Shown here in pieces: positions 50,725-61,273 of a stretch of 64,000 nt of DNA (positions are counted from its first letter, which is position 1; each line of letters opens with the position of its first letter). Below the pieces are notes generated by a model. That model searched no databases and was not told the DNA's origin. It saw only the letters and a list, made by a program, of their open reading frames with translations. A program made the translations under genes and the position numbers. The stretch is from Ignavibacteria bacterium (GTDB lineage: Bacteria > Bacteroidota > Ignavibacteria > Tepidaquicellales > Tepidaquicellaceae), in assembly GCA_016929695.1 (NCBI GenBank), contig JAFGII010000035.1, positions 1 through 64,000 on the forward strand. The letters are read 5' to 3'.

Positions 50725-51000
50725 TTTTCACCTCTTTTTTTAAATTTATATTGTTGGGATTGTTTATAATGTAACAATAATTACTGAAATTAAAAACTTA
50801 ATAAATATTATTAATTTCATATATTTTCTTCTTTTATCTTTGATTCGTTTGCCGAAAGGTACAGGTTTATATTTTAATTCAAAATTATTTAGTGTTTTTT
50901 AGTGTAAGTTTTAGTGTTTTTAGTGGTAAAATACAAACTCCTTGTTTTTTTTTAAAATTGAATTGTAACATTTTCTTTTGTTTATACGTCTAAAAAATAT

Positions 51001-59418: not shown

Positions 59419-60555
59419 TCATTTACTTACCCAGTCTTTCTTTTCCCACAAAAATTCCGGCAATTCCCTGCCGAAATGTCCGTAAGCCGCTGTCTTTCTG
59501 AAAATAGGTGAATTTAACTTTAGTTTTTTAATAATCCCGCTTGGTGTTAAATCTATTATCTTTGTAATTTGCTTCTGTATCTCTGCTTCATCGTACCTGC
59601 TTGTCCCGTGAAAATCTAACATGAAAGAAACCGGATTCTCCTGCCCAATTGCATACGCGAGCTGTACCGTACACCTCTCCGCTATCCTCGTTGCAACAAT
59701 ATTTTTCGCAATGTACCTCGCTATGTACGCCGCCGACCTGTCAACCTTTGTTGCATCCTTTCCCGAAAATGCTCCGCCTCCGTGCGGACAACTGCCGCCG
59801 TATGTATCAACAATGATTTTCCTGCCCGTTAACCCCGTATCTGTTTTTGGTCCGCCTAAATTAAATGTCCCACCGGGATTTATTAAGTATTGAACGCCAT
59901 TTAAGTTAAAATAGTTCTCAAGTACCGGTTTTATTATATCACTTCTTACAATTTTCCTCAAATTCTCTAATTTTATATCTTTTGAATGCTGTGTTGAAAA
60001 TACAACTTTTTTAACAGCAATGGGCTTGTTGTCTTCATAAAGAATTGTTACCTGCGATTTCGCATCGGGATATAAAAATGAATATTTAGGTGTTTGCCTG
60101 ATTTTTGCGTGATACTCAAGAAGTTTATGTGCAAGCAGTATTGGCATCGGCATTAATTCTTTCGTCTCGTTGCTCGCATACCCGAACATTAATCCCTGAT
60201 CACCTGCTCCCGTTTTCTTCTTGCTCGTTACTGCCCTGTTAATCTCGTGACATTGCTGCTTGATTGAAAGTACGTATGTACACGCATCCGCATCAATTCC
60301 GTTTTCTTTGTTGTAGCCGATTTCTTTTATTACTGATTTTGCTATTTCCGGTATTTCAGTCTTTGGCAGTCTCTTCGAATTAAACTCGCCCGAAATTACC
60401 ACCAGATTGTCTGATAATAATGTCTCGCATGCAACTTTTGCATTGTTGTCAACTTTAAGATATTCGTCAAGTATCGCATCCGATATTTGGTCTGCTACCT
60501 TGTCAGGATGTCCCTCCGAAACTGATTCCGATGAAAATAAATATTTTTTGCTCAT
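59419..60555 (-). CDS. metK: S-adenosylmethionine synthetase
   Basis: MetK makes S-adenosylmethionine from methionine and ATP in the cytosol. The 378 residues include SEGHPDKVADQISDAILDEY, GAGDQGLMFGYA and GGGAFSGKDATKVDRSAAY, the ATP-, metal- and phosphate-binding signatures. Length is normal. It starts at ATG 60555. The leader carries a predicted SAM-sensing riboswitch with a terminator 30 bases before the start codon, which would shut the gene off when its product is abundant. Confidence 0.98.
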   Translation of the reverse strand: MSKKYLFSSESVSEGHPDKVADQISDAILDEYLKVDNNAKVACETLLSDNLVVISGEFNSKRLPKTEIPEIAKSVIKEIGYNKENGIDADACTYVLSIKQQCHEINRAVTSKKKTGAGDQGLMFGYASNETKELMPMPILLAHKLLEYHAKIRQTPKYSFLYPDAKSQVTILYEDNKPIAVKKVVFSTQHSKDIKLENLRKIVRSDIIKPVLENYFNLNGVQYLINPGGTFNLGGPKTDTGLTGRKIIVDTYGGSCPHGGGAFSGKDATKVDRSAAYIARYIAKNIVATRIAERCTVQLAYAIGQENPVSFMLDFHGTSRYDEAEIQKQITKIIDLTPSGIIKKLKLNSPIFRKTAAYGHFGRELPEFLWEKKDWVSK

Positions 60556-60586: not shown

Positions 60587-60631
60587 AAAAAAACCGCGCA
60601 CTGCATTTATCCTCAACTGTAGTAAGCGGTT
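60587..60631 (-). terminator. Riboswitch expression platform: terminator before metK
   Basis: On the minus strand AACCGCTTACTACA and TGCAGTGCGCGGTT form an imperfect 14-base stem with a 12-base loop followed by seven U residues. It lies between the aptamer and the metK start. Its 5' arm contains GCTTAC, complementary to GTAAGC in the aptamer P3 loop. Confidence 0.85.
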
Positions 60632-60648
60632 CTTGAGCCAGAATATTT

Positions 60649-60729
60649 CGTGTTTTCACGCGTATTATTTTAGCACCGTGTTTCCGGCTTACCGGTTGCT
60701 GTTTCTTGTATAAAGAAATCTCTTAATAC
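60649..60729 (-). ncRNA. SAM riboswitch aptamer, SAM-IV or SAM-I/IV-variant type
   Basis: Minus-strand order: P1 arm GTATTA (60729-60724), AGAGA, a P2 hairpin TTTCTT-TATAC-AAGAAA, GCAACC, a P3 region with CCGGTAAGCCGG, GGTGCTAAAA, then P1 arm TAATAC (60667-60662). The AGAG, GCAACC and GGTGCTAAA blocks are the ligand-core signature of the SAM-I clan. There is no P4 helix between P3 and P1, and a CGTG-AAAA-CACG hairpin lies directly 3' of P1 (60660-60649), as in SAM-IV or SAM-I/IV-variant RNAs. The P2 is short, without the internal kink-turn of SAM-I. The position upstream of metK fits the sensed ligand. A -7-like box lies 27 bases upstream. Confidence 0.82.
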
Positions 60730-60755
60730 ATAAACGTCTTCCTAAAGAACTGTAA

Positions 60756-60763
60756 CAAAAATA
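60756..60763 (-). promoter_or_regulatory. Candidate -7 box of metK leader
   Basis: TATTTTTG on the minus strand matches TAnnTTTG, 27 bases upstream of the riboswitch P1. I could not find a TTG at the expected 19-20 base spacing, so this is tentative. Confidence 0.4.
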
Positions 60764-61273
60764 AAACTATTAATCTACAAAATAAACTGATTAATTTTTC
60801 AAAAACTAACTCTTGCTTCCTTTGCTCCTTTGTGGTTTTTTATTCAATTTAAAATTCCTTTGCTTTCCTGAAATCAATACAGTTCTTAACTTAATTCAAA
60901 ATTATTTAGTGTTTTTTATTACTGATTTATGTATTCTTAGTGGTAAAATATTACCGCGTAGTTTTTTCTATTCATAATTTATAATTTTATTGCATTCATA
61001 GCACCTTTGCGGTTATTTTTCCCTTTATTCATAGCCCGGACAAGCCGGAAGCTCTTCTGGATACCACGCGCTCCGGCGTGGTATCAAAATTTCTTTGCCG
61101 GTTCGTGCAGAATTTAAAAACTAATGGGCAAATTTAATCCGATTTTCTAATTCAGTGAATTCCACGTTATAATAATGAAAAATTTGTTGATTTTCTCCCT
61201 GTTTTTACTCATAAAACATAATTATTTTTCGTTAAATACTTGTATTATATATATTGAATTAAACTTTACCATT
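60764..61273. other. 510-base gap with near-repeats and a palindrome
   Basis: Holds TTTAGTGTTTTTTATTACTG (about 60904-60923) and CTTTGCTCCTTTGTGG near-repeats. It also has a palindrome with ATACCACGC (61061-61069) facing GCGTGGTAT (61076-61084). The frame from 61175 into the ferredoxin gene is not the preferred coding start. Confidence 0.6.

Follow-up and report, generated by a model that had tools for sequence, protein, structure and literature searches.

A SAM-I/IV riboswitch with an intrinsic terminator and a predicted antiterminator upstream of metK in an Ignavibacteria bacterium

SAM-I/IV riboswitches combine features of the SAM-I and SAM-IV classes and have no internal loop in P2 (PMC2864571); their P2 is undivided, and the pseudoknot PK-1 is absent (PMC6890682). 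The SAM-I/IV RNA that has been crystallized, 4L81, contains an internal P4 (PMC5393176). Here, we analyzed a stretch of 64,000 nucleotides from an Ignavibacteria bacterium (hereafter, the window), for which a preliminary description had proposed a compact SAM-sensing RNA with a built-in terminator in front of metK.

A cmscan search with the Rfam models gave a significant SAM-clan match on the minus strand, in which RF01725 (SAM-I/IV) was aligned over its full length (1–99) to positions 60734–60633 with a score of 60.7 bits, compared with the curated gathering score of 41.1. The E-value of this match was 1.5e-7 for the 64-kb window against all of Rfam. RF01725 was the best SAM-clan model for the element, which was the only riboswitch found in the 64 kb by the Rfam scan, and the metK leader provided the single RF01725 match in the whole source genome. 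The ligand core, consisting of AAGA, GCAACC, and GGUGCUAAA, was intact in the Rfam alignment of the window aptamer, and CAACC and GGT were without variation across the alignment of 29 relatives. The SAM-I-clan ligand core that had been read from the sequence was found in full on the minus strand (AAGAGA, GCAACC, and GGUGCUAAAA), and the coordinates and elements given for P1, the short P2, GCAACC, P3, GGUGCUAAAA, the hairpin 3′ of P1, and the terminator were correct. On the other hand, the suggestion of a lineage-specific aptamer variant was not sustained, since the simple P2, the missing P4, and the hairpin outside P1 correspond to the RF01725 consensus. The short P2 without a kink-turn is a SAM-I/IV trait, because both PMC2864571 and PMC6890682 describe an undivided P2 for this class. 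A new riboswitch class and a lineage-specific aptamer are ruled out by the full-length match, and by its sequence the element is an ordinary, well-conserved member of SAM-I/IV, a known riboswitch class. Its features are listed in Table 1.

Table 1. Positions of the riboswitch, terminator, and metK features in the window
Feature	Position	Strand	Pairing and evidence
SAM-I/IV aptamer, whole match	60633..60734	-	RF01725 cmscan
P1 5′ strand, GUAUU	60725..60729	-	pairs with 60666-60662; Rfam alignment
P1 3′ strand, AAUAC	60662..60666	-	Rfam alignment
P2, short hairpin	60701..60720	-	Rfam alignment, pairs checked
P3 with core strand GCAACC (60699-60694) and start of GGUGCUAAAA (60677-60668)	60672..60700	-	Rfam alignment, covariation
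P5, hairpin 3′ of P1	60649..60660	-	Rfam alignment; seen in growing-transcript folds
PK-2 5′ strand, AGCCGGAA, P3 loop	60682..60689	-	pairs with 60643-60636
PK-2 3′ strand, UUCUGGCU, tail after P5	60636..60643	-	pairs with 60689-60682
Predicted antiterminator 5′ strand, CAAC-C-GGUAAGC-C-GG (P3 5′ strand and loop)	60684..60698	-	folding
Predicted antiterminator 3′ strand, CC-GCUUACU-ACA-GUUG, over terminator 5′ arm and loop	60614..60629	-	folding
Intrinsic terminator, stem AAGAACCGC.UACU / AGUG.GCGGUUUUU	60588..60634	-	folding; then end of U-run at 60587
metK, SAM synthetase, 378 aa	59419..60555	-	TIGR01034, 519 bits, cut-off 309

P1 comprises six pairs when the first A of the core is included. 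The strands of P2 (60720–60714 and 60706–60701) enclose a lone bulged A, with no internal loop and no kink-turn, and the segment that joins GGUGCUAAAA to the 3′ strand of P1 had no internal P4 in either the window sequence or the Rfam alignment. Among the 29 relatives, P1 was paired in 97.9%, with changes on both sides in three of its five pairs, and P3 was paired in 88.5%, with changes on both sides in three pairs. The covariation score of P1, P3, and P5 taken jointly over 29 sequences was 0.350, compared with 0.150 for shuffled sequences; when partners were slid, it did not exceed 0.104. P5 itself was paired in 50.9% phylum-wide, where it is poorly aligned and therefore of little weight, and P2 was left out of the count because it was not alignable. 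Covariation across related leaders, which had been proposed as a check of the helices, was thus observed for P1 and P3, with P2 outside the count; the SAM-clan assignment stands because the RF01725 match is present and these two helices covary. In addition, the UGUAU of the P1 5′ strand is complementary to AUACA in the P2 loop (60701–60735), and this alternative hairpin dominates the ligand-free folds of the window but was not seen in the folds of two same-genus leaders (L031 and L032, from genomes G429 and G430, respectively).

The canonical P3-loop pseudoknot of the family, which the preliminary description had missed, is represented in the sequence by PK-2, with eight pairs in the window, one of which is G-U. 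For the window alone, a PK-2-like match occurred in 8% of shuffles and could therefore be due to chance. Family-wide, however, the pairing of each P3 loop with its own tail had a mean of 11.06, compared with 8.85 ± 0.44 for swapped tails, and the observed value was reached in 0 of 50,000 permutations, in which duplicate loop-tail pairs were removed and relatedness was corrected no further. A looser version of the own-versus-swapped comparison gave 5/20,000. The strands read GAGAC/GUCUC in L031 and L032, UCCAGGA/UCUUGGA in L034, and CCAAG/CUUGG in L006. The isolated PK-2 duplex of the window was calculated at −10.6 kcal/mol; in the ligand-free folds, its 3′ strand is taken up by pairing to the core and to the 3′ strand of P1.

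A terminator 30 bases before the ATG of metK had also been noted, and the terminator was borne out. The terminator had a folding energy of −14.8 kcal/mol (z = −2.7), equally good structures were obtained in 5 of 200 shuffles, and 31 nt separate the end of the U-run at 60587 from the ATG of metK at 60555, the gene being identified by TIGR01034 (Table 1). A simple terminator scan, which considers loops of 3–8 nt only, did not list this structure, which is evident from folding. No sigma-70-type promoter was found. The sequence TATTTTTG at 60763–60756 fits the −7 box of Bacteroidota promoters, but motifs of this type were no more frequent in the window than expected by chance. Terminator-like hairpins were also observed on the plus strand at 61060–61085 and 60940–60957, between metK and a divergent gene at 61175, whose product resembles a NapH-like ferredoxin protein with a match below the curated cut-off.

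Given the components established from the sequence, namely the aptamer with its covarying P1 and P3, the PK-2 complementarity, the terminator, and metK, the SAM-I/IV riboswitch very probably shuts metK off by transcription termination at high SAM. Under this mechanism, the P1/P2/P3 core would bind SAM at high concentrations, and P1, P3, and PK-2 would be held together; with the P3 5′ strand occupied, the 5′ arm of the terminator would be left free, so that the terminator would form and transcription would end before metK. At low SAM, the P3 5′ strand and loop (60698–60684) would pair with the 5′ arm and loop of the terminator (60629–60614), while the PK-2 3′ strand would pair with the P1 3′ strand and the core, allowing the polymerase to read through and metK to be expressed. 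The proposed direction of the switch follows from the logic of antiterminator and terminator and from the feedback expected for a gene of SAM synthesis. The earlier prediction that SAM favors termination and thereby controls metK is in line with the RF01725 match, the covariation of P1 and P3, the terminator, and the identity of metK.

The predicted antiterminator is centered on GUAAGC (60692–60687), which is exactly complementary over 6 nt to GCUUAC (60627–60622) and extends to 13 pairs. In growing-transcript folding, this helix had a probability of 0.93–0.97 in transcripts ending at 60613–60601. Once the 3′ arm of the terminator was made, its probability fell to approximately zero and that of the terminator rose to 0.91–0.998, the latter being at least 0.91 in transcripts extending past 60592. 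The antiterminator duplex was calculated at −13.8 kcal/mol, compared with −6.5 ± 2.2 kcal/mol for shuffled arms, of which 0.5% were as good; when the whole aptamer was offered as a partner, 2.1% of shuffles matched it. P3, PK-2, and the terminator stem each have bases that this helix also uses, and the states are therefore mutually exclusive. This exclusion is the reason why we read the helix as an antiterminator rather than as a part of the aptamer. The 13-pair helix is specific to the window sequence, being absent from L031 and L032, and among 31 loci the P3 5′ strand paired no better with its own tail than with swapped tails (11.516 and 11.509, respectively), so that no family trend was seen; for these reasons, the evidence for the antiterminator is that of one sequence and of energy models. 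Weighing these results, we put the chance that the 60698–60684/60629–60614 helix acts as an antiterminator a little below even.

Both same-genus genomes carry RF01725 before metK, with scores of 63.6 and 60.9 bits. Their leaders share with the window the aptamer class, the gene, an equally placed terminator, and ACCGCUUA in the terminator 5′ arm. In these relatives, however, the role of antiterminator falls to a strong local hairpin, formed between GUCUCUCAAUAAG of the PK-2 3′ strand region and CUUAUUGAGAGC. The window has lost most of this arm, with CUCAA/UUGAG remaining, and its predicted antiterminator is built instead from the P3 5′ strand and loop. It is conceivable, and we propose it tentatively, that one genus combines a single aptamer and an almost unchanged terminator with two antiterminators, one using the PK-2 3′ strand (the relatives) and the other the P3 5′ strand with the core GCAACC (the window); under the same tentative proposal, the partners would have been swapped as the P3 loop mutated and a portion of the tail was lost. 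The predicted partner-swapped expression platform would be the sole mildly new point of this locus, and a modest one. If the predicted switch is true, the three same-genus leaders would represent a small natural experiment in which the platform was rewired while the sensor remained fixed. The loop-to-terminator pairing, which had been suggested as a possible lineage-specific design, is specific to the window sequence and was not shared by the two same-genus leaders.

Alternatively, the riboswitch and its direction could be the same, with the antiterminator of the window being the local hairpin CUCAA (60637–60633)/UUGAG (60616–60612) as a remnant of the same-genus design. The strong version of this hairpin in both L031 and L032, GUCUCUCAAUAAG with CUUAUUGAGAGC, and the conservation of the terminator core ACCGCUUA among the three leaders are in its favor, and the 2 nt that CUCAA shares with the PK-2 3′ strand could still allow PK-2 to control it. 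In the window, however, the hairpin retains only five pairs around a 16-nt loop, the middle of the relatives' arm being gone; it did not form when the growing window transcript was folded, and UUGAG is located in the terminator loop, outside the stem. We regard this explanation as rather unlikely.

The preliminary description had left open whether GUAAGC/GCUUAC is an antiterminator or a pseudoknot. The complementarity was confirmed, and the former reading is favored. If the pairing instead belonged to the SAM-bound aptamer as a pseudoknot, the terminator arm would be held in the presence of SAM and termination would be prevented, making the element an on-switch. The exact 6-nt complementarity is in favor of this explanation, as is the fact that SAM-I/IV P3 loops do pair with the 3′ tail, but PK-2 offers a better-placed partner directly after P5, at the family position. 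Furthermore, pairing of GUAAGC would break the loop-closing pairs of P3 (60692–60680 and 60691–60681), its extension would break P3 itself, and switching on a gene of SAM synthesis in response to SAM would constitute perverse feedback, making this explanation very improbable.

In pseudoknot-free energy models, P1 was unformed at all lengths examined, and the refolded state was favored over the aptamer by 7–8 kcal/mol before PK-2 and SAM are taken into account. For the off-switch, it is plausible that PK-2 together with SAM would pay this refolding preference, and the calculated stability of the PK-2 duplex could offset it. The view that the aptamer is a decayed relic without SAM binding, so that the terminator merely attenuates metK, may appeal to the AU-rich P1 and P2 and to the non-aptamer fold preferred in unconstrained folding, but it is highly unlikely given the full-length score, the intact core (AAGA, GCAACC, and GGUGCUAAAA), and the retention of an eight-pair PK-2 whose sequence differs from that of the relatives.

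RF01725 matches above the cut-off were found in 29 of 395 genomes of the phylum, 9 of 294 of the class, and 5 of 44 of the order. With its terminator, the window leader is a clean further example of SAM-I/IV from an order in which few genomes carry this element. The source genome has two metK genes, one in the window and the other at 50849–51961 of contig C40, and the riboswitch is present at the window copy only. No Rfam riboswitch was detected near the C40 metK or the second metK of G429, and a further 20 metK loci, almost all of them belonging to the same order, gave zero Rfam matches. The riboswitch-linked metK copies (the window, G429, and G430) formed one clade with that of L058, an uncultured Bacteroidetes MAG; the window copy sits on a long branch, and we regard the grouping, which involves long branches, as tentative. 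Outside the genus, the scan of the genome collection for close relatives returned distant metK genes only. In L058, the RF01725 element (765–865) is located about 1.1 kb upstream of metK with ORFs between them; the start of one of them, a 176-aa ORF (1351–1881), resembles the N-terminus of MetK (SVSNGHANKIVVQTSNAISDDYLAQ), perhaps as a decayed partial duplicate.

Many SAM-I/IV elements of the phylum are followed, mostly 10–35 nt past the aptamer, by a complement of the P1 5′ strand and J1/2, as in ACATCAAGA/TCTTGATGT. Such loci include L002, L003, L004, L005, L008, L010, L013, L015, L017, L024, L026, L028, L033, and others. Own pairs exceeded swapped pairs, and the observed mean was reached in 0 of 50,000 permutations. 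From these sequences, the downstream complement has the appearance of a widespread anti-P1 expression platform; the window lacks such a complement of its P1 5′ strand. Judging from the first ORFs only, the elements of L002–L005, L010, L027, L011, L019, L023, and L033 seem to precede uncharacterized proteins that show no evident connection with methionine or SAM, and those of L007, L012, L014, L016, and L018 precede a likely membrane transporter.

Among the known SAM riboswitches, SAM-I (RF00162) has the ligand core in common with the window element, which differs in having neither the kink-turn nor P4; no match to RF00162 was obtained in the source genome at E-values up to 1. SAM-IV (RF00634, PMC6890682) resembles it in P5 outside P1, PK-2, and the absence of P4, but has a P2 split into P2a and P2b and the second pseudoknot PK-1; P2 in the window is one short hairpin. 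The sole aptamer difference found from SAM-I/IV concerns P4, which is present in the crystallized RNA and absent from both the window and the Rfam consensus. In P1, the undivided P2, P3, P5, the core, and PK-2, the element preceding metK matches SAM-I/IV as represented by RF01725.
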